Shown in pieces: positions 5,223 through 64,000 of a DNA stretch of 64,000 nt. Positions within the stretch are counted from its first letter, which is position 1; each line of letters starts with the position of its first letter. The stretch is taken from the NCBI RefSeq assembly GCF_050624435.1, contig NC_134541.1, forward strand, positions 6,025,983 to 6,089,982, written 5' to 3'. Under the pieces are notes generated by a model. That model was not told the DNA's origin. It saw only the letters and a list, made by a program, of their open reading frames with translations, and ran no database searches. Origin of the DNA: Tenrec ecaudatus (taxonomy: Eukaryota > Chordata > Mammalia > Afrosoricida > Tenrecidae). The position numbers and the translations under genes are program-made.

Positions 5223-5229
5223 CACCTGA

Positions 5230-20481: not shown

Positions 20482-20532
<51 letters not shown>

Positions 20533-20538: not shown

Positions 20539-20649
20539 TATTATCATAGCTTTAACATAGCAAAAGAGGAAAAGCCAACAGGAGCTGAAGGTCACAGCCC
20601 AGACCAAAACTGGTTCTAAAAGTTTGAGGCTTGACAAAGAGTCTTTGAA

Positions 20650-24225: not shown

Positions 24226-24227
24226 TT

Positions 24228-25832: not shown

Positions 25833-27110
<1,278 letters not shown>

Positions 27111-32888: not shown

Positions 32889-32967
32889 GTGTAGAGGATC
32901 TGTGTAGCCTCATCTTGCCAAAGTCCCCCAGTAGTTCTATTTTACATGGCTGCTTGTATGCGAGCTT

Positions 32968-33850: not shown

Positions 33851-33859
33851 TGTGTGAGC

Positions 33860-34337: not shown

Positions 34338-34640
34338 AGGTGTTCTGGTGGAACTATGGGTTAGGAATTTTGGTGCTAACCATGAGGTCAGCAGTTTAAA
34401 CTCACCAGCCACTCCTAAGGCAAAATTGAGCCTACTTCCATGAAGACATACAGCCATAGAATTGATTGTGTCAGTTAGAAATATGCTACTAAGATTATAA
34501 TTAGTTGCCATCAGGTGGATTCTGACTCATAATGGACATGTGTGAAGAATAGCTTAGAACTCTTCGATAGGGTTTTCCGGCCCGTGCCCTTCCAGACTCA
34601 CATTGCCAGAAGGTCACCAATCTGTCTTGTGAACCATCAT
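34338..34640 (+). repeat. AfroSINE (+) followed by reversed AfroSINE-like piece (-)
   Basis: 34,338-34,480 is a + AfroSINE ('ttctggtggaactatgggtt', 'ccatgaggtcagcagttt'). 34,500-34,640 is a reversed piece ('gccatcaggtggattctgac'). Both have counterparts in unit B (58,035-58,205 and 59,090-59,230). The stretch 34,612-34,640 is the uninterrupted form of the site where unit B has a 2-kb insertion. Confidence 0.7.
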
Positions 34641-34789
34641 CCTTTCGCCTAGTAGTCAGGCTCATAACTGTTTGTACCCCAGCCCCCCGGTCTGCACAAT
34701 GAGATACTGTCATCATGAGAGAAGGCAACCCAGCCCAAGTAGCCCCATTTAAAGTTGCACTAATGGAAAACTTTCTCTCTCTCCTGCAG

Positions 34790-36513: not shown

Positions 36514-37015
36514 ATGTAAACAAGTCTTTGACTCTAATTTACTCTCATAGACCATAAGATATAGACAGAAAGCTTTGTGTGTAGAGAAGATAAGAATTTG
36601 AGACAAAGGCACACTTCAGAGAAGTGGTTTCTGTGGTCCAAGAAGGTGAGGTGCTGTGACAATAAGTTTATTCTTGCACCAGATGCCACAGGGATAAGGG
36701 CCGGGAGAGCTGTTATGCAAGGAGGGAACGTGACTCCAGGGTCCTTTCTTAGCTGACTGAGGAGGACAAAATGTTGCCACCACAACTCCGCCCACTTCTG
36801 AGGCAGTGTCAGAAGAATTCTGCTCTTTGTGAGGGGAGCTATCAGTAGTAATTAACTAGATTATTCTTTCCACATTCTGTAACTAAATAGAATAGAAAAG
36901 TAGAAGCTTAAGTCTAAGAATGGTTAGCTTGTTTTATTTTCATATGCCAGTTCCTGCAAGTGCTTTGTTGTCTTTTTGTTTAAATTTTTTAATAAACCAT
37001 CAGGAACACTTGTTT
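36514..37015 (+). other. 3' UTR of unit A
   Basis: Contains the remains of a further finger (to about 36,548) and then ordinary UTR-like DNA to the poly(A) signal. It is homologous to the flank of the decayed unit at 3,790-4,160. Confidence 0.6.
36991..36996 (+). terminator. Candidate polyadenylation signal AATAAA of unit A
   Basis: AATAAA in 'aattttttaataaaccatca', followed by a T/G-rich stretch 20-40 bases downstream. It is the first good signal after the stop codon. Confidence 0.6.
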
Positions 37016-42420: not shown

Positions 42421-42934
42421 CAGTTTTATGATGGAGAGCGCGTGTGAGATTGTCTGCACAACAATCACAAACCAGACGTGGGAGACATATGGCTGATAGC
42501 ACTGATATTGTATAACCTCACCCGTTGGGATTGAACAACAGAATTCTATGTGAATGGATATATTAGAAAGTGTAAGATAATGTCAATGCTACTACTAAAA
42601 ATGGGTAAACAGAGAGCAATGATCAAGTATCACATTTTAACCTAATTATATCTGCCATAATCCAGTTTATGATAACATCTGATAGCAAGGCTATTGACAT
42701 ATGTGGACTATAGTCAGAAGGTATTCTTCAGGGCAGAATCCATATATGGACCCTACAAATGGATTTTAGCTTCCCACTGCCCTCCATTACCTTCTGTAAA
42801 TCAGGTGTTCACAATTTAAGCTCTGATACTATTCCCTTCTTTGGATTAGAACCAAATCTTGAACGAGCCCTGGCTTCTACCGCCACACAACTCAGGGGCA
42901 ACAGAGAGAGCGCTCACTGCTTTCTTTCTTCTTT

Positions 42935-43060
42935 TTTAAAAACCATTTTATTGGGAGATCTTACAGCTACCATAACATTCCATAGTTCAACCACATTAAG
43001 CAGTATTGTACAATTGGTATCATCAGTTTCAAAAATTTCCTTTTTTTTCTTGCTCATTGC
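42935..43060 (-). repeat. Very old 3' end related to the abundant family
   Basis: 'aaccattttattgggagatc', 'cataacattccatagttc', 'gtacaattggtatcatca' align loosely with the family terminus. Confidence 0.45.
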
Positions 43061-43319
43061 TTTCTTAAAGTGTTCAGTTACTTAACTTTTTAACTTGTAT
43101 CAGTTAACATCCTGTATATTTTAGTCTAAAAAGCTTTCCTATGTAAATATTTTTCTTCCTTTATGATTTTATTATTAGAATGGTCAAATGTCACCTGGCA
43201 GTTACTTAGATTATTTCTAAGTAAACTGATAATTCTGTCTCTAAAGTGGACTAACTTTAAAGTTATAAAATGAATCAGGGCAATAAAACCCAAAAACGAA
43301 TCAGGGCAAAGAGAAATGG

Positions 43320-43680
43320 GCTGAGGGGGAGTAGCGATACTAGGAGGGGAAAGGGAAGGTTGGGGAAAAGGCAGAACTGATCACATTGATCTATCTATAA
43401 CCCCCTCCCAGGGGGATGGACAACAGAAAAGTGAGTGAAAGGAAACATCGATCAATGTAAGACATGAAAAAGTAATAATTTAAAAATAATCAAGGGTTCA
43501 TGAGGGACGGAGGGAGGAGGAGAAAAAGGAGAAGCTGATACCAAGGGCTCAAGTAGAAAGAAAAATGTTTTGAAAATGATGATGGCAACAAAAGTACAAA
43601 TGTGCTTGACACAATGGATGGATGTATGAATTGTGATAAGAGTTGTATGAGCCCCCAATAAAATGATTAAAAAAAAAAAG
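43320..43680 (+). repeat. 5'-truncated abundant retroelement
   Basis: Ends 'gagttgtatgagcccccaat' and 'aaaatgatt' plus A-tail at about 43,678. It lies in intron 1 of unit B. Confidence 0.8.
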
Positions 43681-44101
43681 ATCAAGCAACTTCTCTATCC
43701 CACAGGTCCTAGATGATTGGGCACAAGGCAGCTTTTATAAGTGAGGATTGAAGATATCATCTCCTAAGCAGCAGAGATCCTCCTGGAGATGAAAAAACTT
43801 CCATTTGACTATAACAGAATATCAGGCAGGAGTGGATTAACTCTTGGTCCTTGTGCTCCCAAAGAGCACAAGGCTTCAAAGAACAGGGGAATAATGGACA
43901 CCATGAGGAACCTGTCAAAAGGTGAGAATTGTAGAGGGTCTGGATGAGGGGAGGGGCCCAAGTGTCCAGATACAGGTGAGACTGCTTTAGTGGTTGCAGC
44001 TGAGTAAAGTAACTCCCATCCTCCCATCCCATGATCAAAAGAACTAATTGGGGAGCATTATGGGTGTTGCTCATTCTCACAGTTTCTCTTTCTACCCTTA
44101 G

Positions 44102-44160
44102 ATTTGTCTGCTATGGGTACTGACTGTCCCCAAGAGAGGAGGAGGACGCCTCAGATACTG
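44102..44160 (+). CDS. ZNF343-like: Unit B exon 2: short N-terminal coding exon
   Basis: Acceptor tctacccttag|atttgtctgc, donor ATACTG|gtgagt at 44,161. The ATG at 44,113 gives MGTDCPQERRRTPQIL, 16 residues ending in phase 0, the counterpart of 18,021-18,079. The basic run (ERRR) replaces KRKK of unit A. As in unit A, a still earlier coding exon cannot be ruled out. Confidence 0.75.
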
Positions 44161-45660
44161 GTGAGTTGAAAGTAGTTACCTTATTTATCTTCACTGCTGG
44201 TTCATTTCCCAGAGGAAATGAGGCTTATGTTCTCTGTCTTGGAAAGGAATAAGGCAGGCAACATTTAGACATTTCATGCCGCTGTGCCATGTTAGGTAGG
44301 TATGTTTGCATTTTATTTTTCTTGTTAGGAAATTTATCCAAGGTTAGTAATAAAAATAAGGAAACTCTAAGATATATATTTAAAACTAATATTAATAGCA
44401 TTTTAAAATATACTATTAAATGAGTACACATTCACAGATGTATAATACCTAATGACAGCATCTTATAAACTGGGCATCTTTTTGCTTTTTAATTACTTAT
44501 CTTTTTAATCTTACAAAATTCAAGCAAATAAGGACAGTAGATTCTCATATACTATCATATATATTCAGTAGTCATCTCCAAGAGATAGCATTTTTTAAGG
44601 GATAGCCTTATTTGCAGGAATTGATAATGTACAGACAAATATAAAATATCTAAATACCCACTGTTCTTCCCTGTTCAGTTGTGACACAGCTGCCCACATG
44701 GGACTTTTTCTCTGAGCCTAGCCCATTGGAAGTAGGTCAGATTTAACACATTTAAAGGATCCTATTTTTTAGACTGCCAAGTTTGAGAGTCTACAACCCA
44801 ATATATCTGCTGGGTACAAATTTGAGGTGTGCCTTATCCCATCATGATGCCTGCCTCAAACATGGTATCTCTCTCTGGGATGTCTCAGGTCTGATCCTCT
44901 GGCTTCAAGTCCAGGCTTTTTCTCTACCCACCTGTATATCAGCCCTATGGTTTGGAGTTCCCTTTGGGCTCCCCTGTGTTTGACCTGTTGACTTTCAGTA
45001 CTCCTAAATGTTTATTTATTTATTATTGTTTTCTGGTTCCTTTTAAAAAGAAAATTTTCTTGGTATAAAATTCATATATCATACACTCTTCTTAGTTAAG
45101 TCACTCTTAAAAAGAGTTGTATATACATCATCACAATCAGTTCTAGTTTTCCCTCCCCCAATTACTGTATATTTAATCATTTATTGAAACAACTCAGAAC
45201 TCACAAAAAGGGCTGTTTATGATCACACATTATTATAGCAAAACTGGAATATAAGCAAATAGATGCAAAGGAAGAGTTGCCTTTGTGGAGCTTCCATGTA
45301 CCCAAATGGGGGGATGCTGTCATCCCAGAAGCACCAATGTCTTCACCTACCAGGGTTCAAAGCTTTTGTTGACTTCACTGCTTAGGATGGATTGGATCAT
45401 CCTCCATCTTTCCCCTAAGACCAAGAGAACTCTGAAATGAGTGCTGTCGATCATTCCTGATGGGGTGCATTTCTGTGTTTTCATAGTGATGTGTGAACTT
45501 AAGAGCCAGCAGGAGCATTTATACTTTATGGTATTATTCTTTTAATGTACTGTGACAACTGAATTTGACGCATTTTCATGGGTAATTGGGGTTATTTAAA
45601 CCATGTTAAGAGAAGTTTGTGCATATTTTAACTGCAGAGTGAGGAACTTCTGCATTTAAG
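44161..45660. other. Unit B intron 2, proximal
   Basis: 44,161-44,780 is colinear with unit A. 45,050-45,180 resembles an old L1 3' UTR ('aaattcatatatcatacac', 'catcatcacaatcagttcta'). 45,190-45,500 may be an old LTR but is not recognised with confidence. No gene. Confidence 0.4.
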
Positions 45661-45679
45661 GTTCAAGAGTTTGTACATG

Positions 45680-46092
45680 TCAGATAAGAGCCCATGACAT
45701 AGGGAATCTAGGTTAGATAAACTACTCAGGAACAGAAATGGGAGTAGTGATACCAGGATGGTGAGGGGAAGGTAGGAGTATAAGGGGTGGAAGGGAGAAC
45801 TGATCTCAATGATTCACACACAACATACACACACACAGATGAACAACATAAATTTGGGTAAAGGGAGACAGTGGTCGGTGTAAGATAAGAAAACAATAAT
45901 AATGTATAATTTACCAAGAGTTCATGAGGATGGGAGGGTAAGGGAAGGAGGGCAAAAAGAGGAGCCGATACCAAGGGCACAAATAGAAAATAAATGTTTA
46001 GAAAATGATAACTATATGTACAAATATGCTTAATATAATTGATGTATGGATTGTTATAAGAGTTGTGAGTCCCCAATAAAATAATTTTAAAA
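45680..46092 (+). repeat. 5'-truncated abundant retroelement
   Basis: Flanked by agtttgtacatgt at about 45,668-45,680 and 46,103-46,115, a 13-bp target-site duplication. Ends 'gagttgtgagtccccaataa'. Confidence 0.75.
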
Positions 46093-46621
46093 CAAAGAAA
46101 AAAGTTTGTACATGTACAATTTACTGACTTGTGTATGTTCCTTGAGTCGGTTAATCATTCCCATCCTCCATTTTACATTGTTTCTCCTCTATTAAACTCA
46201 CTGCCTCTCTAATCTTTTGAGCTGCTATTGTCTATTTGACCCAAATAGATAATTTTAAAGAGCATAATGCTCAAAACAATCCTTTATTGGGTAAAACTAG
46301 TTGATAAGAAACAGTTGCAAACTCCCACTAATAATCAGAATGTGAAGTACTTGAAGTATGAGTCTAGGAAAATTAGAACTCATCAAAAATGAAAGGAAAC
46401 CCATAAACGCATACAGTGCATGAAATGACAGATCATTGCAAAGACAGAAAAGAAAGAAAAGACCAAACTGCATCTGAGAGCAGGCTCTGAAGCCTGCTCT
46501 TGAATGTGCAAGACCTGGTGTTAGAAAACATAAAGGAAGCTCATACTTGGCATGTCTCAAGCTGAAATTGCTAAAGAAACATTCAAGTTTTGATTTCCAT
46601 TATCGAAGGATATTGGAAGGG

Positions 46622-48420: not shown

Positions 48421-49360
48421 ACCAAGGATGGGAATTACAGAGCACTTACTTGTAGTGTTGATGCAGAGCCTGTATGTAGATAAGAGGTAATCATTCCAAC
48501 AGAATGAGATTCTACATGTTTGGAATAAAGATTTGCATCAGGGTTGTGTTCTTTCGCCTTATTTAATATATGCTGTGCACATAATCAGAGAATCTGAACT
48601 ATGTGAAGAAGAATGAGGGATCAGGAGTAGAGAAAGACTCATTAACAAACTGCAGTATACAGATGACACAAAAACTTAACTTGATGAAGGCATAGTGACG
48701 GAATTAATACTACAGCCATCAATATGGATTAAATTTCAACATAAAATAAAAATCTGCAGAGCAAGACTCAAAGCAGCATTATGTGACTGGAGAAAATACC
48801 AATCAAGGGTTTCTTTTTGCTTTTATCCACACAAAAATAAATCACACAAGAATAAATCAGATGACCCATTGTAATAGGCAGATCTTCTAATGCCTTATAA
48901 ATCTGCTAATGACTTCATTAAATTTTTATAAAACAAAAGTGTCTTTTGAGGACCAAGGTGCCCCTGTTATTTTCAGTAACTTCATTTGAATGTGAAAACT
49001 GGAGATGAAGAAAAAGAATAAAGAATTGGTGCATTTGAATTATGGAGTTGTTAAATAATGAATATGCCCTGAAGTGCTACAAGAAAGAACCAATCTTTCT
49101 TAGAAGCTGGATAGCCAGAATGTAGAGAAGCACGTAAGCAAGTATGGTAAGGCTTCATCGCATGTACTTTGGGCTCATGAGGAGGCACCAGTCCCTGGTG
49201 TCATGCTTGACAAAGTTAGAGAGTAAGTGAAACTGAAGAAGACCTTCAACAAAATGGTTGACACAGTGGCTGTAATAATGGGCACAAACATAGTAACAAT
49301 TGGGAAGATGGCATGGTATAGACCCAGGTGGTGGCTTCATCTGTTGTACAAGAATTACAA
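48420..49360 (+). pseudogene. RTE/BovB-like LINE fragment, shared with unit A in part
   Basis: Pieces LHQGCVLSPYLI, IIRESELCEEE and LQYTDDTKT (a decayed YADD region) on the + strand, then RTE 3' sequence. 48,930-49,360 is colinear with 25,590-25,832 plus 27,111-27,230 of unit A, so this part predates the duplication. It contains multiple stops. Confidence 0.7.
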
Positions 49361-49389
49361 TGATTCAGAATCAATTCAATGTTATAACT

Positions 49390-50408
49390 GAAGAGTGTGG
49401 ATAACCTTGAGAGGAATGAGAATACCAGAATTCTTCATTGTGTTCCCGTGGAACTTACACATGGATCAAGAGGCAGTTGTGCAAGCAAGAGGATACTGGT
49501 TGGCTTAAAATCAGGAAAAGAGTGTACCAGGGTTGTATCCTCTCACCATGCTTGTTCAGTCTATATGCTGAAACATCAAGAGAAGCTGGGGTATATGAAG
49601 AACAATGGGGCATCAGGATTTGAAGGCAGAGATATGCAGATGATTCAACTTTGCTTGCTGAAAGTGAGGAGGATTTGAAGCACTTATTGATGAAGATCAA
49701 GGATTGTAACCTTCAGTGTGGATTCAACTCAATGTAAAAAAGACTAAAATCCTAACAACTGGACCAATAGATAACAATATGATAAATGTAGAAAAGATCA
49801 AAGTTATTAAAGGATTTTGTGTTGCTTGCATGTACAATTAGTGTTCATGAGATCAAAAGATGTGTTGCATTAGATAAATGTACCACACAAGACCTCTTTT
49901 AGAGCATTGAAAAGCAAAGGTATTACTTGAGGACGAAGGTGCGCCTGACCCAAGCCATGGTATGTTCAGTTACCTCATATGCAGGCGAAAGTTGGACATT
50001 GAATAAGAAAGACTGAAGAAAAATCAATGGATATGATGTGTGCTGTTGGAAAAGGCTATTGAAAATACCATGGATTGCTAAAAGGACATACTGCTCTGTC
50101 TTGGAAGAAGTACAGCCAAAATATTCCTTAGAGGCAAGGATGACAAATCTTAGTGCTACATACTTTGGACATATTGTCAGGAGGTACCAGTCCCTTGGGA
50201 AGGACATCATGTTTGGTCAAGTGGAGGAGCAGTGAAAAAGGACGGCCCTCTAGGAGATGGATTGATACAATGGCTGCAACAATGGACTCAGGCATAGGAA
50301 CAATTATGAGGACCATGCAGGACTGGGCAGCGTTCTGTATTGTGCATAGGGTGGCTGTAAGTCTGAACTGACTTAATGACACATAACAACAACAACAACA
50401 ACAATAAT
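49390..50408 (+). pseudogene. RTE/BovB-like LINE, C-terminal half of ORF2, inactive
   Basis: Frame pieces KRVYQGCILSPCLFSLYAE, RYADDST-like 'agatatgcagatgattcaac', then CCWKRLLKIPWIAKRTYC and ARMTNLSATYFGHIVRRYQS. This is the standard RTE order of reverse transcriptase and C-terminal region. The YADD codons (tat gca gat gat) are intact at about 49,631. It ends in (caa)n at 50,385-50,403, the usual RTE tail. Stops and frameshifts break it. Better preserved than the 48.4-kb piece, so younger. Confidence 0.8.
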
Positions 50409-50859: not shown

Positions 50860-50999
50860 CTTTCCCGCAGTGCTCGAAGAACCATTGGGGATCCTTACGT
50901 AAGACAGATCAAGATAAAAACCGGTGTTGTGAAGCAATTGGTCTAAGAAAAAGTGATTTAAGAAAAAAAAAATCAAGAAGACTGAAAAAATGAAGGCTG
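50860..50999 (+). pseudogene. TBCA pseudogene: TBCA (tubulin cofactor A) processed pseudogene, 5' part
   Basis: From 50,887 the sequence reads GDPYVRQIKIKTGVVKQLV, then stop, then EKVI, stop, EKK: the N-terminus of tubulin-folding cofactor A, a small chaperone that holds beta-tubulin. The start codon is lost (att at 50,884). Upstream 'cagtgctcgaagaacc' looks like 5' UTR. There are no introns. The copy is cut after aaaaaatgaaggctg by a 1.3-kb retroelement and resumes at 52,312. Located in intron 2 of unit B and absent from unit A. Confidence 0.8.
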
Positions 51000-51469
51000 G
51001 TGGGTGAACAAGTAAATGTGAAGAAAGCTGATGGTGCCCGGCTATCAAAAGAGATAGTGACTGGGGTCTTAAAGGCTTGAAGATAAACAAGCGGCCATCT
51101 AGCTCAGAAGCAACAAAGTCCACATGGAAGAACACACCAGCCTGTGTGACGAGTGGTCCCGAAGGAATCAGTTATCAGGCATCAAAGAACAACAAATCAT
51201 ATCATTGACTGCACACCTCCATGATAGGATCGCTGAAGACAAATGGGTGCATAAGCAAATGTGAAGAAAGCTGATGGTGCCCGGCTATAAAAAGAAATAG
51301 TGTCTGGGTTCTTAAAGGCTTGAAGGTGAACAAGCGGCCATCTAGCTCAGAAGCAAAAAAGCCCACATGGAAGAAGCACACCGGCCAGTGCAATCACGAG
51401 GTGCCAAAGCGACCAGGTATAAGGCATCATGCAAAAAAAAAGAAAGAAAGATGTGTATATGTATATATA

Positions 51470-51528
<59 letters not shown>

Positions 51529-52311
51529 CACATTGAATGAAGGGGGAAGTGCAGAGTGGAGACCCAAGGCCCAAGTGTCGGCCAATGGAGATCCCCTCAT
51601 AGAGGGGTTTAGGAGAGGAGATGGGTTAATTAGGGTGCGAGGTAGTACCGATGAAGAACACAGCTTTCCCCCAGATCCTGGATGCTTCCTCCCCCCAACT
51701 ACCATGATCCGAATTCTACCTTGCAGGGCTGGATAGGGCAGAGGTTGCACACTGGTACATATGAGGGCTGGAGGCACAGGGAATCCAGGGTGGATGATAC
51801 CTTCAGGACCAAGGGTGTGAGGGGCGATGCTGGGAGAGTGTAGGGTGAGTGGGTTGGAAAGGGGGAACTGATTACAGGGATCCACATGTGACCTCCTCCC
51901 TGGGGGAGGGACGGCGGAGAAGGGGGGGAAGGTAGACTCCGGATAGGGCAAGATATGACAAAATAACGATGTATAAATTACCAAGGGCACATGAGGGAGG
52001 GGGGAGCGGGGAGGGAGGGAAAAAAAAATAAGGACCTGATGCAAAGGGCTTAAGTGGAGAGCAAATGCTTTGAGAATGATTGGGGCAGGGAATGTATGGA
52101 TGTGCTTTATACAATTGATGTATGTATATGTATGGATTGTGATAAGAGTTGTATGAGTCCCTAATAGAATGTAAAAAAAGAAAAGAGGAAAAAAAAGAAA
52201 ATGATTAGGGCAAAGAATGTACAGATGTGCTTTATACAATTGATGTATGTATATGTATGGACTGTGATAAGAGTTGTATGAGCCCCTAATAAATTCTTTT
52301 AAAAAAATTTT
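51000..52311 (+). repeat. Young 1.3-kb retroelement inside the TBCA pseudogene
   Basis: Flanked by aaaaaatgaaggctg at 50,985-50,999 and 52,312-52,326, a perfect 15-bp target-site duplication. It has the same internal partial duplication, microsatellite and dimeric 3' end as the twin at 25,833-27,110, with only scattered differences. It belongs to the same young subfamily. No coding capacity. Confidence 0.9.
51471..51521. repeat. (GT)n(AT)n microsatellite
   Basis: Short GT run then about 42 bases of AT, in the same place of the element as 26,251-26,341 but shorter. Confidence 0.9.
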
Positions 52312-52356
52312 AAAAAATGAAGGCTGAAGATGGTGAAAATCATGCCATTAAAAAAC
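52312..52356 (+). pseudogene. TBCA pseudogene: TBCA processed pseudogene, continuation
   Basis: Reads EKMKAEDGENH.AIKKQ (one-base change of frame at 'aatcatg'), continuing the cofactor A sequence across the inserted element. It stops matching after KKQ, where the next retroelement begins. Confidence 0.75.
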
Positions 52357-54478
52357 AAAAAGAGAGGGGTCGACCACATTATCAAGTGGACAGCACCACC
52401 CTCCCCCCAAGAAGAATTCACTTCAGAGGATAGCACTGATGCTACAGCTCAAGAAGAGGGGAAGAGGACTCGTCTGTTCAGAGCATACAGGAGCCAACAA
52501 GGAGGCATAGGGGAAAAAAAGAAAAGAGTGACGCACATCCTGACTCACCAAGCCCTGAGGACAATGTTCCTGCTCAGAAAAGCAATGCACAGAGATCACC
52601 ACAGGACTGGCCCCACTGTGGGACACAGTGTTCCTCATTGATCCATGGCACCACTGGGGACAACACTAGAGACACACAGTGGGAATTGTGCCAGCCATGA
52701 GCTCATCACACTGAAGCCAGCCTCTGGGGGCATGCAGCAGGGCAGCGGGGGAAACAGAGTAATGAAGTCCCCAGGGATAGAGGCAGTGTCAGGGCATGGC
52801 ACCCCATCAGACTTGACTGGAAAGCACTTGTGAAGGAAAACAAACAGACCCTGAACTATTCATACGTTTATGTGTGCATGTGTGTTTTTGTTGTAGCTAT
52901 TATTTTACTTTCTGTTGGTGCTTCGTGGTACTCAATCTTGTGATAGTATAGCTTGTCTACCTGGAAGGGATAGGCGGAATAAACAAGCCAGAAGAGAGAA
53001 CAACGGGATGACAGTTCTGGGGGGACATGAGGGTAGGGATAGTAGGGGGGAGGAAGAGGTGTTAACAAGCCCAGGAACAAGGGAATAACAAGTGATCAAA
53101 AATCAGTCTCAAAGAGGGTGTGGGAGGTCCTCCCTCAACACAAGAACGCTTTGTTCTAACAATTCAGCAGTCTGAGATGCTCACCTGCTTGGCACAATCA
53201 CTGATGACAATGGGTGCACAGGAAAATGTGAAGAAAGCTGATGGTGCCCGGCTACCAAAAGATAAAGCACCTGAAGTCGCTGAAGACAATGGGTACACAA
53301 ACAAATGTGGTGAAGAAAGCTGATAGTGCCCAGCTACCAAAAGATATAGCACCTGAAGTCTTAAAGACCTGAAGATAAACAACAGCCATCTAGCTGAGAC
53401 ACAACAAAACCCACATGAAAGAAGCACACCGGCCTGTCCCGACTAGATCACTGAGGACAAAGTGAGCGCATAAGCAAAAGTTGCGAACAAAGCTGAGCTG
53501 ATGGTGCCCGGTTATCAAATGATATAGCATCAGGGGTCTTACAGGCTTGAAGACAATCAGGCGGCCATCTAACTAGGAAACAACAAAGCTCACAAGGAAG
53601 AAGCACACCAACCTATCCCGACGTGAACGCTGAAGACAAAGCCGGGTGCATGGGCAAGTGCGGTGAAGAAAGCTGATGGTGCCCAGTTGTCAAAATATAT
53701 AGAATCTGGGGTCCCATAGGCTGGAGGATAAGGGGACATCTAACTGAAAAACAACAAATCCTACATGGAAAATGCACACCAGCCCGTGAGATGACAAGTC
53801 ATTGAAGGGATTAGGTATCAGGCATCAAAGAAAAAAAAATCATAGCATTGTGAATGAGGGGTCGGGGGCAGAGTGGGGACTCAGGGCCCATCTGGGGGAA
53901 ATTGGACATCCCTTGCAGAAGGGCTGTGGGGAGGTGAGGAACCAGTCAGAGTGTAGTGTAGCAACGAGGAAACACACAATTTTCCTCTAGTTCTTGAATG
54001 CTTCCCCCCCGCCCCCACTATCATGATCCCAGTTCTACCTTACATAACTGGCTGGACCGAGAGATGTACACTGGCATGGATAGGAACTGTAAATACGGGG
54101 AATTCAGGACATATGAGCCCCTCAGGAACAGTGTTGAGAGTGGCGATATCTGGAAGGTGGAGAGAGGGTGAGGGAGAAACGGGAAACAGATGACAAGGTC
54201 TACATGTAACCTCCTCCCTGGAGGATGGACAGTGAGGAAGACGTCGGATGGTGTAAGATATGATAAAATAATAATTACTTATAAATTATCAAGGGTTTGG
54301 TGGGAGGGGGTAGTGAGGAGGGAGGAGAAAATGAGAAGTTGATGCCGGGCTCAGGTGGAGAGTGGGTGTTTTGAGAATGATAATGGCAATATATATGTAC
54401 AAATGTGTTGGACACAAATGATGTATGTACGGATTGTAAAATGAGTTGATGAGCCCCTAGTAAAATGATTTTAAAAAA
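52357..54478 (+). repeat. Abundant retroelement with 3-4 tandem internal units
   Basis: Nearly full length (5' block 'gaagaattcacttcagagg', T-rich stretch, 'aagggataggcggaataaac'). The internal unit that starts 'gctgaagacaa' and contains gaagaaagctgatggtgccc occurs at about 53,200, 53,280, 53,450 and 53,630; the first is partial and the rest are about 165-190 bp. It ends 'atgagcccctagtaaaatga' at 54,470. It is a diverged, older copy with VNTR-like expansion. Confidence 0.75.
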
Positions 54479-54479
54479 A

Positions 54480-55000
54480 CAAAAACAAAAGCAGATCTTG
54501 CAAGAGTACTGGATGATGATCATAGATTGCCAGCGTAGGTTAGAAGCTGCATATGCTGATCTTCCTCAGATATTAGAATGTGAAGTTAGAAACTTAAAAT
54601 TTTTCTGTATGAGTTTTTTTTAACTGAAATCCATTCCAGAGTTTATTATTTTTAACCACGGCTGCATAATGTTGAAGTAGAATGAAAATGTGATTCTTTT
54701 AATGTAGTTGAATATACAGTTGCCTAACTCAAGGCATCAAATAAATCACTTCATGTAAAAAAGTTTTTTAAAAAATCAACAGATAGTGATATTATGGATC
54801 TCGTTTATTACCTGAACTTTTGAGGCATGCTCATTACAGACCCTATCTGTTCACTCCCACTTTTCTCTGTATAGCTGAAGTCCTTCCATCTTCTCCTTTA
54901 AGTCTTCACCATCCCTTCATGCCTAGTTCAAGCTCCAACTCTCTGGTGTCTTTTGTTCTTTTCTAGCCTTCCTATTACAGTAAACTCGTAGGCTTTGATG
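54480..55000. other. Unit B intron 2, colinear with 27,400-27,720
   Basis: 54,770-55,000 matches unit A ('cagaccctatctgttcact', 'caccatcccttcatgc'). No gene. Confidence 0.5.
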
Positions 55001-55068
55001 CATTCTTTTTTTGCTGCTCCCAAGTTTTATTCAAGAACTCATTCAAAATATTCCCTAGAAATGATTTT

Positions 55069-56036
55069 TTAAAAATAATTTTATTGGGAATTCGTACAAC
55101 TCTTATCACAATCCATTGTGTCAAGCACATTTGTACATTTGTTGCCATCATCATTCTCAAAACATTTTCTTTCTACTTGAGCCCAATCAGCTCCTCATTT
55201 TCCTCCTCCCTCCTAGCCTGCCCTCTCTCACAAACCCTTTATAATTTATAAATTATTACTATTTTGTCATTTCTTATACCGTCCCATGTCTCCCTTCACC
55301 CACTTTCTGTTGTCTGACCCCCAGGGAGGGAGTTATATGTAGATTATTGTGATCAGTTCTCCCTTTCTCCCCTATTTTCCACTTACCATTCTGGTATCGC
55401 TACTCTCATTATTGGTCCTGAGGGGTTTACCCGTCCTGGATTTGCTGTGTTTTCAGCTCTTATCTGTACCACTGTACATCCTCTGGTCTAGCCAGATTTG
55501 TAAGGTAGAATTGGGATCATGATAGTGGGGGGGAGGAAGAATTAAAGAACTAGAAGAAAGTTGTATGTTTCATTGTTGCTATGCTGCACCCTGACTGGCT
55601 CATCTCCTCCCCGCGACCCTTCTGTGAGTGATGTCCAGTTGCCTACAGATGGGCTTCGTGTCTCCACTCCACACTCCCCCTCATTCACAGTGATAAAAAT
55701 TTTTGTCCTTTGATACCTGATCTCATGGATACCTTGTGATCACACAGACTGGTGTGCTTCTTCCATGTGGCTTTGTTGCTTCTAAGCTAGATGGCTGCTT
55801 GTTTACCTTTTTTTTTTTTGCTCCCCGCCCCCAACACCTTCAAGTCTTTAAGATCCTAGGCACTATATCTTTTCATAGCTAGGTTCCATCAGCTTTCTTC
55901 GCTACATTTGCTTATGCACCCTCTTTGTCTTCAGTGATCTGTTGGGAAGGTGAGCATCATGGAATGCCAGGTTACTAGAACAAAGTGTTCTTGAATTGAA
56001 GGAGTACTTGAGTAGAGGCCCAATGTCCATCTACTA
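55069..56036 (-). repeat. Abundant retroelement in the 3' UTR of the RPL22 pseudogene
   Basis: Flanked by cctagaaatgatttt (55,054-55,068) and cctagaagcgagttt (56,037-56,051), a diverged 15-bp target-site duplication. 5'-truncated minus-strand copy. Confidence 0.8.
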
Positions 56037-56091
56037 CCTAGAAGCGAGTTTTAATCCTCATCTTTGTCCTGGTTAATTTGGAAGCAACATA

Positions 56092-56202
56092 CCATGTATA
56101 CTTGTATATAAGCTGAGTTTTTCACATTTTTTATGCAGTCTTTGTGGTAAAATTAGGTTCCTTGGCTGATAATTGGGTCAGCTTATACTCAAGTATATAC
56201 AG
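56092..56202. mobile_element. TA-flanked palindromic MITE (Tc1/mariner-like)
   Basis: Ends ccatgtatacttgtatataa and, on the opposite strand, ctgtatatacttgagtataa: imperfect inverted repeats of about 25 bases. TA dinucleotides flank both sides (56,090-56,091 and 56,203-56,204). Removing it rejoins the RPL22 codons cleanly (GAA-TTA-TGT-TGC-TTC). A 111-bp noncoding element. Confidence 0.75.
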
Positions 56203-56846
56203 TAATTCGTGACTTTTTTTGCTGTTGGTGACCACACACAATCACGTCGATTATTATTATTCAATTTTTTTGAGATATTTCAAATACCTTTGGAAAAAGA
56301 CACCTTGGAGGTTACAGTAATCTTGCCCTTGCTTCTTTCAATGGTTACAGTGACTCCCCTGAGATGACTGGCTTCCTCATTCAACTTGATGCTTTCTTGA
56401 AGAAGCTGCTCAAAACTGGTAGCATCCATGATTCCATCTTCTACAGGGTGGGTGCATTCACGCGTGAACTTTAGAACCTGCTTCTTTTTTTGTCCCCCTT
56501 TGCCACAGGCTTTTTTACTGGGGCCTGGTGGCAGCGGAGGCACAAAACTTTATGCATTCTTAAGGGCAAACTTTGCTTGAATACTGAGCAATACGATCAA
56601 ATGGTTCACCAGTCATTTCTCCAGTGAAGTCATATGTATTTGAGGCCTAGGATGTGTGTTGGGCATCACTCGTGCTCCCCAAAGATCCAAGTCGGCAGTC
56701 AAGCCTGAGGAACTTGATATGGAGAACTGTTTTCTCTATAAAGAATTAGATGAACTTCCGATGCAGATTCTTCAGGGCCCCCAGCTAACCTCTCACTGTG
56801 AAAATTGGTGGTGTTTTTATGCACCTTGATTTCTTACTCATTCTAG

Positions 56847-56973
56847 GAGCCAGTTACAATCGAGGATGTCACTGTGGTTTTCACGGAGGCAGAATGGAAG
56901 ATACTGAGCTCTGAGCAGAAGAACCTGTACCGAGACGTGATGCTGGAGGTGTGCAGGAATCTCTTCTCATTGG
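56847..56973 (+). CDS. ZNF343-like: Unit B exon 3: KRAB-A box
   Basis: Acceptor tcattctag|gagcca, donor tcattgg|gtgagg; 127 nt. Translation [17 protein letters not shown], then [18 protein letters not shown] and CRNLFSL. It differs from unit A at only three residues (V for I, E for K, I for T) and keeps the DV, EW and MLE positions used for TRIM28 contact. Phase 0 in, phase 1 out, as in unit A. Intact, so the repressor function is probably retained. No KRAB-B exon was seen. Confidence 0.92.
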
Positions 56974-57044
56974 GTGAGGATGTGCTTTTTCTGTTCATTA
57001 ACGCAGTAGATATTTATTGTCCACCTGCTCTGTGCCAAGTGAGC

Positions 57045-57240
57045 TACAGTGGTGCAGTGGGTAAGCATTTGCATTCTAACCAAATGTTTGCATACATTTG
57101 GTTTGGACCCACCAGCCACTCTGTGAGAGAAAAATGTGTCACTCTTATTCTGTCAAGATTCATAGACTTGGAAACCCTCTTGGCCAGTTATTTTATCCTT
57201 TAGGGTCATTATGAGTTGGAATCAACTTGATAGTGACATG
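57045..57240 (+). repeat. AfroSINE shared with unit A
   Basis: 'agtggtgcagtgggtaagca', 'gacccaccagccactctg', 'tgtcaagattcatagactt'. Same insertion as 28,382-28,600. Confidence 0.85.
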
Positions 57241-57364
57241 TTTTTTTTTTCTATGTGTTATATAGTTTGTACTCAAGTTGTATCCTAAAGGCTGGTCATT
57301 TGAATCCATTCAGGGGACACTGCAGAAGAAAGATCTGGCAATCTCGTTAGCCAAATGTTCCCTC

Positions 57365-57560
57365 ACTCACTCATTGCTGAGTCGATTTTGACTCATAGTG
57401 ACCCTATGGGACAGGATAGCATTTGCCTCTTGGGCTCCTGAGCCTGTAATTCTTTATGGGAGTTGAAAGCTTTGTCTTTTCCCCAGGAGCATCTGGTGGT
57501 TTCAAACTGCTGACCTTGCAATTATCAGCCCAATCTGTAACCACTAATCCATCAATTAAC
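57365..57560 (-). repeat. AfroSINE, minus strand
   Basis: 'gagtcgattttgactcatag', 'tgaccctatgggacagg', 'ctgaccttgcaattatcag', 'gtaaccactaatccatc'. The unit A site appears to lack it. Confidence 0.75.
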
Positions 57561-58035
57561 TAAGTTGTCCCTTGATACAATGGTTTAATCCTTTGTCCCA
57601 GTTAACCAATCTTGTGAGTTACTTGGATATGTCTAGGAAGTCATTCTAATTGTGCCCCTATGTGCTTTTATTATATCTAAATGAATACATATGTAGTACA
57701 CAATGTGTGTATATAGCTATAGAAATGCCTATACAGGCACACAAAAAATGCCTATACATGGGCGCGTGTACTCCTGTATACCTATTTGTACATATCTATG
57801 CTTGCTTCATTTCAAGGATAACCTCTAAACAACTTGGTTTGGATACTTTTTATTTATTTATGAACTGCAAGGTGTCCTGTAATTGTAATATAGCATGCAG
57901 GGATTAACCAATAAACTGTGTTAAGGAAATGTCTGTAGCCTACTATGCCAAGGAAGTATTTGTGGAGGAGATTGCCTGTTTATGTTACTGGGTGGAGGGC
58001 ACTGGCCTGATATTCATGAAGACTTAGATATATGT
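57560..58035. other. Unit B intron 3 colinear with 33,900-34,337
   Basis: No gene; shared 'gatatgtctaggaagtc' and 'aggaagtatttgtggagg' type blocks. Confidence 0.5.
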
Positions 58036-58205
58036 TTAAGGAGCTCTGGTGGAGCTATGGGTTAGGAATTGTGTTGCTAACTGCAAGGTCAGCAGTTCAA
58101 ACCCAACAGCCACTCCTAAGGATAAAGAGAGACTACCTGCTCCTATAACGATGTATAGTCTTAGAAATCTTATACAGCGTTGGGATGAGTCAAAATTGAC
58201 AATGT
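58035..58205 (+). repeat. AfroSINE shared with unit A
   Basis: 'gagctctggtggagctatgg', 'gcaaggtcagcagttcaaac', counterpart of 34,338-34,480. Confidence 0.85.
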
Positions 58206-59090
58206 GGAAGTGGGCTTGGTCTATGTCTGTAAACAGGAAGTCCTGTGGGGGTTTTGTGTATTTTTCAGACAGGAAGCAGAAGGGAAAAAGAGACAAGAAG
58301 CAAAAGAAAGAGGTGGCAAGGAACCCCTTGAAAGAGGTGTAAGACTAGATACAGTGAGTTCAGGGGATGAGCCTCATGGCACAGTCAGTAGACTGTGCAG
58401 GATCCAGAGGAATCTATCCTCAAGGGACTAGAGTAACCTTCCATTGGAGGTTAAAAGGAAGCTTGACTTTGGAGAGGCGCTGAGAGCTGCTGCACTGAAG
58501 AGAGGAGACTGCCTTCTTCCTGATCTATCAGTCCCTCTTTATAATAAGAACAGTCATGATTTCCACACAGGTCATAGGAACTATTATTCCCATGGAATAG
58601 CAAAGTGTTAGAGCAGAATATATCATGTGAGTGTCTGCGTCTTAGCAGAGGATTTTAGCAGAAGGAAAAGTTAGACTAAGAGAATACTAGAAGCTGTTTG
58701 CAAGGCAGAAGCAGTATCTGATGCTTACTTGAGAAGAGAAGTTCTAGTCTGACATTTTGACGAGGTTGTGGGTGTGGGTTATCTGGATTGCATACCTAAT
58801 ACTACTGCTATGAGGTTGACTGCAAGTCTTCGGGGACCCTCTGTGACATGATACAATGGTCCCATAGAGTTTCCCAGGCGCCAAATCTTTATAGAAGCAT
58901 TTTGCAATCCCATTCTAGCATTGAGCCATTTGTACCACTAACTTTTTGGATTGCATCCAAGGGCTTTAACTGTTGCCCTGCATGGCATCCTTCTGGATTG
59001 CAAGAGAATGTTTCATTTGTAAAAATAGAAGATAAATGAGCTGTCAGTGAAGGAAAGATTGTATTGTTTATATTATCCTTTAGAATGTGC
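58205..59090. other. Unit B intron 3; reversed AfroSINE at 58,800-58,985
   Basis: 58,205-58,800 shows no recognisable feature. 58,800-58,985 is a diverged minus-strand AfroSINE ('gaggttgactgcaagtcttc', 'gagtttcccaggcgccaaa'). Confidence 0.45.
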
Positions 59091-59231
59091 TAGTAAGATT
59101 CTTACTAATTCCCATCAAGTGAATCCTGACTCAGTGAACACATGTGAAGAATAAGATTCGTTCCTTAAGGTTTTTCCAATCTATGCCCTTCCAGGCTCAG
59201 ATTGCCAGCACACCACCAGTCTGTCTTGTGA
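59090..59231 (-). repeat. Reversed AfroSINE-like piece, shared with unit A
   Basis: 'cccatcaagtgaatcctgac', 'ttgccagcacaccaccagtc', counterpart of 34,500-34,625. Confidence 0.65.
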
Positions 59232-59245
59232 ATCATCATCCTTTT

Positions 59246-61202
59246 TAAAAAAAATCATTTTATTGGGGCTCGTACAACCTTTATCACAATCCATACATAC
59301 AATTCTGTCAAGCACATTTGTACATTTGTTGCCATCATTTTCAAAACATTTTCTTTCTACTTGAGCCCTTGGTATCAACTTTTCATTTTCCCCATCCCAT
59401 TCCTACCCTTCTTCCCTCATGAACCCTTGATAATTTATAAATTATTATTTTGTCATCTTTTATACGGTCCCACTTCTCTCTTCACCCACTTTTTTGTTGT
59501 CCACCCCCCTGTGAGGGGGTTATAGGTAGATCATTTTAATCAGTTCCCCCTTCTCCCCCATCTCTCCTTACCTTTCTGGTATGGCTACTCTCAATATTGG
59601 TCCTGAGGGGTTTATCTGTGCTGGATTCCCTGTGTTTCCAGCTCTTATCTGTACCCATGTACATGCTCCGGTCTAGCCAGATTTGTAAGGTAGAATTGGG
59701 ATCATGATAGGTTGCGGGGTTGGGGAGGGGTGAAGAATTAAAGAACTAGAGGAAAGTGAAGTTGTATGTTTCATAAGTGTTCTATTGCACCCTGACTGGC
59801 TCGTCTCCTCCCTGTGACCCTTCTATAAGGGGATGTCCAGTTGCCTACAGATGGGCTTTGTGTCTCCACTCCCCCTCATTCACAATGATAGGATTTTTTT
59901 GTTCTGGGTCTTTGATGCCTGATACCTGATCCTATCGACACCTTGTGACTACACAGGCTGGTTTGCTTCTTCCATGTGGGCTTTGTTGCTTCACAGCTAG
60001 ATGACCACGTTTATCTTCAAGCCTTTAAGACCCCAAATGCTGTATCTTTTGATAGCCAGACACCATCAGCTTTCTTTACCATATTTGCTTATGCACTCAC
60101 TTTGTCTTCAGCATTCATGTTGGGGAAGTTGAGCATCATGGAATGCCAGTTTAATAGAACAAAGTGCTCTTGCATTGAGGGAGTACTTGAGTAGAGGGTA
60201 CAATGTCCTTAATACCAAACTTATAAATATATGAACATAGATCTATTTCCCCATCATCATATATATATTTACATATAAACATGCCTGTATTTAGACCTCT
60301 ATAAATGCCCTTTGCCTCCTAGTTCTTCCCTCTTATTTCCTTTTACCTTCCTCCTGTCCCACTATCACGTTCAGCCTTCATTTGGGTTTCAGTAATTCCT
60401 CTTGGTTACATTGCCCTTGATCAAGCCCTACCAGGCCTCCTACACACTCCTTGCCGTAGATTTTAGATCACTTGTTGTTCCCTTCCTTCCACCCACCTCC
60501 CCATCTCCTTCCACCCACCTCCCCATCTCCCATGTCTTCCCCGGAACTGTCAGTCCAGTTGTTTTCTCCTCCAAATTGTTTATCCCGCCTATCTTATCTA
60601 GATATACATGCAGAGATAATAGTAGGCATAAAAACAAGATAGCAAAACAAAGCAACAAAAGAAAACAAAACTACCATAACAATAACAAAAAAAACCAATG
60701 ACAAAAACCGAAAATCCTATAAATACTTCAAGGTCTGTTGACCTTTAGGAGTGTTTTCTGGTCTAGTCTGATGGGGTACCTCCCCCTGGCCCCAAAGTCT
60801 ATTTTTGGTATTCCTGGGGACTTCATTGCTCTGCTTCCCTTGCTGTTCTATTGCATGCCCTTTGTGTTTTGCCTCCGTCTGGTGTGGTCAGATGGGACAC
60901 AATTCCCTGCACTGTGTTTCCATTGTTGTTTCCTGTTGTTCTGTGGGTCAGTGAGGCATGTCTTGTCTTGTGGTGGGGATGGCCCTATGGTCCTCTCTGC
61001 ATTGGCTGCTCTGAGCATGAATATCATCCTCAGGGTTTGGTGGGCCAGGATGTACTCCACTTTCTCTCCCTCCCCCTCAGCTAGATTTTCATTGCTGTCC
61101 TGTGAAGGAATTCTTCTGGGGGAAGGAGGAACTGTCCATGTAGTTGGGATTGGACCTGGCCTCTCAGACCTCTCTATTGGTTCCCTGATTTATGCCAGTA
61201 AC
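59246..61202 (-). repeat. Full-length abundant retroelement just upstream of the unit B finger exon
   Basis: About 1.96 kb, from poly(A) complement at 59,246 to 5' end 'ggttccctgatttatgccag' at 61,198. Flanked by atcatcatcctttt at 59,232-59,245 and 61,203-61,216, a perfect 14-bp target-site duplication. The uninterrupted site survives in unit A at 34,620-34,640 (accatcatcctttcgcctag). It ends only 166 bases before the exon-4 acceptor. Its last 465 bases happen to be open in the frame of the finger exon. Confidence 0.9.
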
Positions 61203-61368
61203 ATCATCATCCTTTTAACTAGTAGTCAGACTCATAACTGTTTCTACCCTAGCCCCACCGCACCCCCGGACTCCAGCAGCGAGATACTGTTTGTCATAAG
61301 AGAAGACATCACAGCTCAAGAAGCCCCCTTTAAAGCTACACTAACGGGAAACTTTCTCTCTCCTACAG

Positions 61369-63476
61369 AACCCAAATCAGAGATCTCTCCCTATTCCTCT
61401 TGCCTCCTGGCTCTCTCCTGTCAGCAAGTCCTCAGCCAGCATGTGCTTCAGATCTTCCCCAACTTGTGTGCAGAGAATCACTTCCAACCAAGGGATGCCA
61501 GCCCAGGACACCGTAAGCACCTGGAGCAGCAAGATTCTGGTCAGAGTTGCAGAAGTAGAAACATAGAAGATCAGGAAAGAAAAGATGGCTCCAAACCCTT
61601 GTGTGGAAACACAGGGGAGGGAAAGAAATCCAGCCCATCTTGGAGATGGCCAGCAAACCCCAGAGAAGGGAACACAGTGATACGACGGGAATCCGACTCA
61701 ATCCAAAGAATGAACAGCTGTGTGGAAACAGACAGAGAGCTCAAGGAATTAGAAAGCTCAAGATTTGGAACAGTCAGCTACAGAAAGGATGAGCCAGACC
61801 TTGGCCTAAAATCATATTTCATCACGAATCAGAGGAAGCTTTTCCGGAAGAAGCCACATGTGTGCATGGACTGTGGGCGAAGCTTTTGCCAAAAGTCAAC
61901 TCTCACCACACACCAGAGGATACACTCAGGAGAAAAACCACATGTGTGCAAGGAGTGCAGGCAAGACTTTACCTGCCATGCAAATCTCCTTTCACACCAG
62001 AGGATACACTCAGGCGAGAAGCCACATGTGTGTAAGGAGTGTGGGCAAGGATTTAGTCAAAAGTCATATCTAATCAAACATCAGAGGATCCACTCAGGGG
62101 AGAAGCCACATGTGTGTATGGACTGTGGGCGAAGCTTTAGTCACAGGTTTACTCTGATCACACACCTGAGGACACACTCAGGGGAGAAGCCATATGTGTG
62201 TAAGGAGTGTGCACGAGGTTTTAGCCAAAAGTCACATCTCATCAGACACCAGAGGACACACTCAGAAGAGAAGCCACATGTGTGTAAGGAGTGTGGGCGA
62301 GGCTTCAGCCAAAAGTCATATCTCATTACACACCAGAGGACACACTCAGGAGAGAAGCCATACATGTGTATGGACTGTGGGCGAAGCTTTAGTCACAGAT
62401 TATCTCTCATCAGACATCAGAGAACACACTCAGGAGAGAAGCCACACGTGTGCATGGACTGTGGGCAAAGCTTTAGTCACAGGTTAACTCTCATCAGACA
62501 CCTGAGGACTCACTCTGGAGAAAAGCCATATGTGTGTAAGGAATGTGGACGAGGATTTAGCCAAAAGTCACATCTGATCACACACCTGAAGACACATTCA
62601 GGGGACAAGCCACATGTGTGTCAGGAGTGTGGGCGAGGATTTAACCAAAAGTCACATCTCATCACACACCTGAGGACACATTCAGGGGAGAAGCCATATG
62701 TGTGTAAGGAGTGTACACGAAGATTTAACCAAAAGGCACATCTTATCAGACATCAGAGGACACATTCAGGTGAGAAGCCACATAAATGCATGGACTGTGG
62801 GCGAGGCTTTAACCAAAAGTCACATCTCATCACACACCTGAGGACACATTCAGGTGAAAAGCCTTATGTGTGCATGAGCTGTGGGCGAAGCTTTAGCCGC
62901 AGGTTAACTCTCATGACACACCTGAGGACACACTCAGGAGAGAAGCCACATGTGTGCATGGACTGTGGACGAAGCTTTAGTCACAGGTTAACTCTCATCA
63001 GACACCTGAGGACTCACTCGGGAGAGAAACCATATGTGTGTAAGGAGTGTGGCCGAGGATTTACCTGCAAAACAAATCTTCTTATGCACCAGAGGACACA
63101 CTCAGGCGAGAAGCCACATGTGTGTAAGGAGTGTGGGCAAGGCTTTAGCATAAGGTCAGTTCTCATTATACACCAGAGGACACACTCAGGGGAGAAGCCA
63201 TACATGTGTAAGGAGTGTGGGCGAAGATTTAGCCACAGGTTGACACTCATCATACACCACAGGACACATTCTGGGGAGAAGCCTTATGTGTGTAAGGTGT
63301 GTACACGTGGATTTAGCCAAAAGTCAACTCTCACCACACACCTGAGGACACACTCCGGGGAAAAGCCATATGTGTGCAAGGAGTGTGCACGAAAATTTAA
63401 CCAAAAGTCAAATCTCATCAGACATCAGAAGACACACTCAGGAGAGAAGCCACATGTGTGTAAGGAGTGTGGGTGA
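61369..63476 (+). CDS. ZNF343-like: Unit B exon 4: 19-finger C2H2 exon, truncated array, ZNF343-like
   Basis: Acceptor ctctcctacag|aacccaaa at 61,368/61,369; the spliced G plus AA gives Glu, then PKSEISPYSSCLLALSCQQV, then LSQHVLQIFPNLCAENHFQP, the spacer I remember from ZNF343. With exons 2 and 3 the protein is about 760 aa: KRAB-A 17-58, spacer about 60-221, fingers from about 222. Nineteen complete C2H2 fingers follow with HSGEKP-type linkers. The twentieth stops at HVCKECG because tgtgggTGAggc replaces the usual tgtgggCGAggc. An open frame continues upstream of the acceptor to 60,738, but that part is retroelement and intron. With 19 intact fingers it should still bind DNA. Compared with unit A, fingers 14-16 match fingers 13-15, with extra fingers after them. 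Confidence 0.88.
61857..63476 (+). repeat. 84-bp tandem coding repeat: 19 complete zinc fingers plus stump
   Basis: Nineteen 84-bp units followed by 24 bases. Helix types recur (SQKSHLI, SHRLTLI, NQKSHLI, NQKAHLI), which points to duplication of blocks of two or three fingers. Confidence 0.95.
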
Positions 63477-64000
63477 GGCTTTAGCCAAAAGTCTTATCAC
63501 ACACCAAATGACACACTCAGGGGAGAAGTCATGTGTGTATATGAACTGTGGGTGAAGCTTTAGCCACAGGTTAACTCTAATCACACACTTGACATATTCA
63601 GGAGAGCAGCCACGTGTACATGAACTGTGGGTGAGGCTTTAACCACAGGTTAACTCATAACATGAGGACACTCAGAAGAAGAGCTGTATGTGTGTAAGTA
63701 GCATTCACAAGGATGTGGTGAAAAGTCACTACATCACAACCCTGAGGATACATGCAGGGAACAACCCATATGTGCGTAAGAAGTGTACATGAGTGTTTAA
63801 CCAAAAGTTACATCATCACACCAGGAGACACTTAGGAGGGAGCTGCATGTGTGTAATGAGTGTGGGCAAAGTTTTAGTAAAAAGTCAATTATATATCAGA
63901 GGGTACACTCGGGAGAAGTCACATCTGTATAAGGAGTTTGGGCAAAGCTTGAAGCTTAGCTGTAAGCAAAGGCTTATTAAGCATCAGCTGACTCTCCAGA
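63477..64000 (+). pseudogene. Decayed distal fingers of unit B, running off the window
   Basis: Finger blocks continue: 'ggctttagccaaaagtctta', 'gaagctttagccacaggtta', 'gtgggcaaagttttagtaaa'. They carry deletions, frame changes and repeated TGA in the tgtgggYGA position. The last piece 'gcaaaggcttattaagcatc' matches the final finger of unit A (QRLIKH), so the ancestral array had about 25 fingers and ended near the window edge. This part would be 3' UTR of unit B. Confidence 0.8.

Follow-up and report, generated by a model that had tools for sequence, protein, structure and literature searches.

A candidate nonautonomous, L1-mobilised retroposon with a tandem core in the genome of the tenrec Tenrec ecaudatus

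The stretch of Tenrec ecaudatus DNA analysed here (contig NC_134541.1 of assembly GCF_050624435.1, positions 6,025,983 to 6,089,982; 64,000 nucleotides, hereafter the window) is crowded with copies of one noncoding repeat family, inserted in the manner of the L1 retrotransposon. The family is real, abundant and solidly documented: the roughly 2-kb element of which a sequence-only reading had claimed about 20 copies is represented by 18 insertions, amounting to 18.2 kb. We lean towards regarding it as a discrete nonautonomous retroposon, mobilised by L1 and copied from a full-length RNA of about 1.95 kb that would comprise a unique head, a variable tandem core and a polyadenylated tail.

One repeat family in 18 insertions

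An initial self-search of the window with two copies identified a single repeat family on both strands, and a self-comparison with seven seed copies covered 18,229 of the 64,000 bases (28%), a total that includes a few short TA/TG microsatellite matches. A majority-rule consensus, iterated from the copy termed A, measured 1,951 bp and returned 39 aligned pieces in the window, which were resolved by hand into 18 insertions. Small or ancient fragments (1,113-1,334, 16,433-16,560, 25,462-25,555 and 42,511-42,579) were kept apart from this count. The insertions and two related features are listed below in window positions, with their target-site duplications (TSDs).

1,113-1,440, minus strand: ancient family fragment, two core units; paralogue at 16,433-16,560 in duplicated flanks
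6,300-10,142, plus strand: I2_D, starts at consensus ~110; split at 7,190-9,185 by the nested I3; own TSD none found
7,190-9,185, minus strand: I3, nested; two copies head to tail, consensus 616-1150 + 1590-1951, then 1142-1322 + 1079-1943
11,158-11,280, minus strand: I4, 3' end only; TSD none found
13,243-13,431, plus strand: I5, 3' end only; TSD 13,231-13,242 / 13,432-13,443 (one mismatch)
14,387-16,418, minus strand: C, full length, starts at consensus ~5 (by eye); TSD none found
19,660-19,950, plus strand: I7, young subfamily; doubled 3' tail; TSD 19,645-19,659 / 19,951-19,965; site CTT|AAAA
20,608-24,217, plus strand: I8, composite; L1 part (to ~23,000) + consensus ~820-1951 + second tail copy; left end uncertain; TSD none found
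25,842-27,104, plus strand: I9, young subfamily; two core units; doubled 3' tail; TSD 25,825-25,841 / 27,105-27,121 (one mismatch)
30,655-31,171, plus strand: I10, 13-bp TSD 30,642-30,654 / 31,172-31,184
32,970-33,852, minus strand: I11, TSD 32,959-32,969 / 33,853-33,863 (one mismatch, by eye); site CTT|AAAA
38,931-39,236, minus strand: I12, TSD none found
42,927-43,051, minus strand: I13, 3' end only; TSD 42,912-42,926 / 43,052-43,066 (one mismatch)
43,328-43,681, plus strand: I14, TSD none found
45,681-46,102, plus strand: I15, TSD 45,668-45,680 / 46,103-46,115
50,895-54,600, plus strand: TBCA retropseudogene, pieces at ~50,895-50,999, at 52,312-52,368 and from ~54,486
51,000-52,311, plus strand: I16, young subfamily; two core units; doubled 3' tail; 15-bp TSD in the TBCA retropseudogene
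52,369 to ~54,484, plus strand: B, near full length, from consensus ~40; four tandem core units; in the TBCA retropseudogene, site ATT|AAAAAA
~55,070-56,036, minus strand: I18, 16-bp TSD with three mismatches, by eye, 55,054-55,069 / 56,037-56,052; site ATT|AAAA
59,246-61,202, minus strand: A, full length, consensus 1-1951; TSD 59,232-59,245 / 61,203-61,216 (14 bp); site GTT|AAAA

Coverage of the consensus is thin over the head, where sampled positions between 1 and 601 have one to four pieces, and deep over the tail (22 pieces at position 1,901), which is the usual picture of 5' truncation. The first ~100 bp are backed by one or two copies, and the head leans to copy A. The interval 52,357-61,202 is not a single element: it contains copies B, I18 and A, among which lie an RPL22-like match and a KRAB exon.

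Marks of L1-type insertion

To score TSDs, the flanks of each insertion were compared with each other and with 306 deliberately mispaired flanks, the 95th percentile of the latter being taken as the level. Nine of the 18 insertions reached it, and three further TSDs, short or imperfect, were recognised by eye (I11, I18 and B), so that 12 of 18 insertions have a TSD of L1 length. The three TSDs that had been named beforehand are all exact: 15 bp, AAAAAATGAAGGCTG, at 50,985 and 52,312; 14 bp at 59,232 and 61,203; and 13 bp, CATGCTCATTCCA, at 30,642 and 31,172. The target site is exactly TT|AAAA at five of the 12 insertions with a TSD (A, I7, I11, I18 and B), a figure given without a computed control.

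The copies end, as had been described, in AATAAA-like sequence followed by A-rich tails. The terminal hexamer is AATAAA in 13 of 18 insertions and a one-base variant in I3 and B; I4, I9 and I12 are without it. A motif of four G runs occurs in 11 of 19 tail blocks, and we give it little weight because it is not always found at the same place.

Two insertions, I16 and B, lie in one and the same TBCA retropseudogene, which serves as an empty site. The Pfam match to TBCA on the right side is weak (E = 0.0018, 19 bits against a cut-off of 30.3); the reading continues, with frame changes, through the pieces between and beside the two insertions, and a peptide joined by hand across their flanks matches TBCA (PDB 1h7c) with E = 1.4e-22. 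Because the TBCA flanks rejoin, the ends of I16 are exact and those of B are fixed to within ~12 bases, the right end of B being placed no more closely than that since its TSD is A-rich. Taken together with this empty site, the TSDs, A-rich tails, AATAAA signals and TT|AAAA sites point to insertion of the L1 type, a conclusion that is well supported and in keeping with the proposed mobilisation by L1.

Anatomy, coding capacity and 5' ends

In the consensus, a unique head (1 to ~1,070) leads into the core, whose unit (~1,079-1,325) occurs between one and four times; a tail of ~620 bp with G-rich tracts and AATAAA follows. The core is found in 10 of the 18 insertions, with more than one unit in four of them (I3, I9, I16 and B) and a single unit in the other six. 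Multi-unit cores show at least two different junctions. Core units measure ~180-250 bp.

No Pfam domain scored above cut-off in the three sense frames of each of the three long copies A, B and C (nine frames in all), the sole row being FcoT at E = 0.046, below cut-off; this agrees with the earlier statement that no protein-like open frame is visible. In the Pfam scans of the window, one strand only was covered at 1-2,700, 14,387-19,650, 20,601-23,010, 42,901-45,670, 52,356-54,484 and 59,246-61,202, while 2,701-10,142, 19,651-20,600, 23,011-25,558, 30,501-37,999, 45,671-46,104, 50,999-52,355 and 61,203-64,000 lay outside the scan; the other weak row was CNOT1_HEAT_N (E = 0.062, below cut-off). 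A search of copy A against Rfam gave 0 matches at E up to 1. Origin from a long terminal repeat element or provirus was rejected on account of the TSDs of 11-18 bp, the A-rich tails and the lack of domains in the three long copies.

The 5' ends of the four longest copies fall within ~110 bp: A and C begin at nearly the same base, B ~40 bp and I2_D ~110 bp further in. From 13 earlier truncations over 14,255 bp of exposure, counted on 17 insertions (I8 excluded), we obtained a truncation rate of 0.91 per kb, which corresponds to a probability of 0.095 per copy of stopping within any given 110 bp. In this post hoc test, four stops out of four have a probability of 8e-5, and three out of three, when the first copy sets the point, of ~9e-4 (by hand from p = 0.095). 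The nearby 5' ends of the four copies thus support a discrete RNA of about 1.95 kb. We also considered whether copy C reaches further upstream; the adjoining core-like piece was assigned to a paralogous flank shared with 1,308-1,831.

Nested copies, a two-copy array and a young subfamily

I3 is nested in I2_D. One TSD, GTAAAYATATTTCT (7,176-7,189 / 9,186-9,199), encloses its two successive element copies, both of which have an A-rich tail. A 5' inversion was considered for the I2_D/I3 pair, which a nested insertion with its own TSD explains better. The array is the trace that would be expected if the reverse transcriptase had left one RNA and continued on the tail of the next.

A doubled tail is common to I7, I9 and I16; its halves are not identical, and by eye the second resembles the single tail of I5. 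The same three copies group together with a support of 0.96 in a tree built from 17 tails, those of I4 and I13 being excluded. Since the doubled tail is common to copies that the tree groups, one copy bearing it seems to have become a source. I9 and I16 are the closest of the compared pairs: they are 97.5% identical at 448 aligned positions of the tail, and 93.2% identical when 1,282 bp are aligned, a TA microsatellite included. This two-copy array inside one TSD, together with a young subfamily marked by a doubled tail, is new anatomy.

Kimura two-parameter (K2P) distances to the consensus, measured on all insertions but I4, range from 0.075 (I3a, in the array) to 0.305 (I13). The ancient fragment at 1,113-1,440 (K2P 0.249) lies in flanks that were duplicated with zinc-finger genes; the family is therefore probably older than that duplication. 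The similarity of I9 and I16 suggests that the family was also active much later.

Relation to L1

The whole window was searched for L1 with approximate probes of human L1 ORF2p and with pieces of ORF1. The ORF2 probes matched at 22,491-22,947, within I8, over residues 2-156; the next best match had E = 0.14 (24,999-25,073) and the one after it E = 1.6 (49,528), and the C-terminal ORF2 probe found nothing in the window up to E = 10. Neither these probes nor Pfam, in the parts that it scanned, show a copy entering later ORF2: with approximate probes in one 64-kb window, recognisable ORF2 beyond residue 156 stands beside none of the 18 insertions. At the observed truncation rate, about 1.8 of 17 insertions would be expected to extend more than 500 bp past consensus position 1. 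ORF1 is likewise recognised beside I8 only (1 of 18), the next best ORF1 locus being not significant (E = 0.68).

The L1 part of I8 contains a presumed 5' untranslated region (UTR), the ORF1 domains Transposase_22 and Tnp_22_dsRBD, and the beginning of the ORF2 endonuclease (Exo_endo_phos, E = 0.00016, a score short of the Pfam cut-off). It is joined in sense, without a reverse transcriptase, to consensus ~820-1951, which is followed by a second copy of the tail. This composite may have arisen by a template switch from element RNA to L1 RNA, or it may be an internally deleted L1 with this 3' UTR, or a HAL1-like relic. A derivation of the element's head from the presumed L1 5' UTR or the ORF1-endonuclease part of I8 was rejected, consensus 1-830 scoring below the shuffle mean.

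Weighing the explanations

A serious, though less likely, alternative is that an L1 family of this species carries the 2 kb as a long 3' UTR, in which case the copies would be ordinary 5'-truncated L1s and I8 an internally deleted one. TSDs, poly(A), AATAAA and G-rich tracts would be expected equally on that explanation, and I8 joins ORF1 and ORF2 residues 2-156, in sense, to consensus ~820-1951; opposed to it are the stop of the four longest copies within 110 bp and the count of 0 of 18 insertions with later ORF2, against the 1.8 of 17 expected. The sequence-only reading had itself named an L1 3' UTR as what would undo its claim of a nonautonomous, LINE-dependent element (LINE, long interspersed element). 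The L1-type insertion and the failure to find coding capacity in three long copies support that claim; independence from an L1 3' UTR is only partly decided, with the clustered 5' ends and the missing later ORF2 on one side and, on the other, the junction in I8 between the ORF1/ORF2 start and the element's last 1.1 kb.

Several further points weigh against a discrete retroposon. L1 coding sequence was recognised at one place in the window, I8, where it is fused in sense to the element, as would be seen if an internally deleted L1 bore this 3' UTR. A working L1 ought to leave many 3' ends, yet no further L1 3' end could be recognised there; a fragment of such a 3' UTR present only once would go unnoticed without a repeat library. 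The truncation test, besides being post hoc, assumes a constant rate, and its 110-bp limit was set by I2_D itself. Two copies, A and C, define the 5' end, B beginning 40 bp and I2_D 110 bp further inside, and no promoter turned up, no promoter search having been made. Six of the 18 insertions (I2_D, I4, C, I8, I12 and I14) have no TSD that we could find, and I3 and the doubled tails could alternatively reflect a later insertion into the A-rich tail of an earlier one, whose A-run would mask the TSD of the newcomer. Moreover, LINEs make up 31.02% of the Tenrec ecaudatus assembly, according to a passage of PMC13063843, so such copies may already be filed as L1.

The structure of I8 would also suit a HAL1-like history, in which L1 derivatives keeping ORF1 and part of ORF2 gained this tail and a noncoding 2-kb form later lost the coding part; HAL1s, as described in part of PMC5322556, encode ORF1 only and depend on full-length LINEs. 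We regard this as improbable, since the window holds a single such copy, decayed at that (K2P 0.176), and consensus 1-830 shows no likeness to the L1 part of I8. A remnant of an RTE/BovB-type LINE, recognised by reading at 48,500-50,400, carries the only RVT_1 match in the Pfam-scanned parts of the window (near 49.5 kb, ~49,447-49,725) and ends in CAA repeats. It attests to a second LINE system, which might have been the partner instead of L1. That is very improbable: the pattern of TSDs, TT|AAAA sites and poly(A) is of the L1 kind, whereas the RTE-type LINE ends in CAA repeats, and a partnership by shared tail was rejected on the score of the element's last 300 bp against the LINE 3' part (22.0, below the shuffle mean of 25.3).

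Proposed cycle and comparison with known elements

If the family is a discrete retroposon, the following cycle would connect the observed insertions, TSDs, tails, nearby 5' ends, nesting, two-copy array and the doubled tail of three copies. A polymerase II-type transcript would be polyadenylated at its own AATAAA, and L1 ORF2 protein would take the poly(A) tail of this RNA in trans, nick the target at TT|AAAA-like sites and reverse-transcribe the RNA, mostly stopping early. The enzyme might sometimes jump to a second element RNA, which would leave a two-copy array, or to an L1 RNA, which would account for the I8 composite; one doubled-tail copy may then have given rise to the youngest subfamily.

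Among long noncoding RNAs carried by L1, those known to us are SVA and LAVA. These hominoid composite retroposons, named for a variable number of tandem repeats (VNTR), come nearest in their way of working, HAL1 in its dependence, and L1 chimeras for I8. PMC4432496 and PMC7353768 describe SVA and LAVA as nonautonomous, built of several parts, with a repeat core of variable unit number, and mobilised by L1 in trans; the present family is likewise noncoding and L1-mobilised, with a core of variable unit number. Their units, however, measure 30-50 bp (PMC4432496) against ~180-250 bp here, where six of the 10 insertions with a core have a single unit; the likeness drawn is one of architecture, and the same source gives both as hominoid-specific. 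HAL1 resembles the element in being nonautonomous and L1-dependent, and I8 has ORF1 without reverse transcriptase; HAL1 differs in carrying ORF1, which lies here beside one insertion in 18. L1 chimeras (U6/L1, Alu/L1 and mRNA/L1) combine two RNAs in one insertion through RNA ligation or template switching, as I8 may do, but L1 is the 3' partner in those treated in the relevant part of PMC13174262, whereas in I8 it is the 5' partner and the element the 3' partner.

An L1 3' UTR, or a truncated L1, shares with the element the G-rich tracts, AATAAA, poly(A), TSDs and 5' truncation. The human L1 3' UTR has 231 nt and a G-quadruplex region, according to an excerpt of PMC10830416; the element differs in its length of about 1.95 kb, its nearby 5' ends and the lack of recognised later ORF2 beside the 18 insertions. 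Should it nevertheless be an L1 3' UTR of 2 kb, it would be far longer than the human one as given there. With a dense independent family, one could ask which properties of a long RNA, such as a tandem core, a G-rich tail or a strong polyadenylation signal, secure it the L1 enzyme in trans.

We tentatively entertain the idea that an SVA/LAVA-like architecture arose independently outside primates and here outnumbers recognisable L1, and that template jumping made the doubled tail, which became the fixed mark of the most recent subfamily and hence of a lineage. Such an element goes unnamed in the titles and abstract openings of the surveyed literature, a survey whose scope ended short of supplements, Dfam and Repbase. 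An exact 22-base tail pattern had 0 matches in viral and prokaryotic contig collections, and blastn of copy A against phages and plasmids gave no match; these blanks say little, because the collections hold viral and prokaryotic DNA.

Neighbourhood

A U6 small nuclear RNA retropseudogene at 20,432-20,538 (minus strand; Rfam, 111.9 bits), the only Rfam match at gathering level in the window, has a likely TSD, ATTATCATAGCTT, read from the sequence, and is a further mark of L1 activity. Together with the TBCA retropseudogene it represents other RNAs copied in trans. A Ribosomal_L22e match at 56,286-56,483 (minus strand; Pfam, E = 1.4e-12) is probably an RPL22 retropseudogene. By eye, the target of I9 is another copy of the RTE-like sequence, visible near 25.8 and 27.1 kb. 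A short repeat at 58,041-58,230 may be AfroSINE-like, which would fit an afrotherian host.

The window also contains a zinc-finger gene cluster, with two long C2H2 open frames (34,837-36,513 and 60,738-63,476) and KRAB boxes near 28.2 and 56.9 kb; partial paralogy is seen among the flanks at 0.9-2.3, 16.4-18.7 and 42.6-44.8 kb. In the second zinc-finger gene, the open frame of 912 codons starts inside the antisense copy A (60,738-61,202), so that automatic annotation could attach part of the element to the protein.

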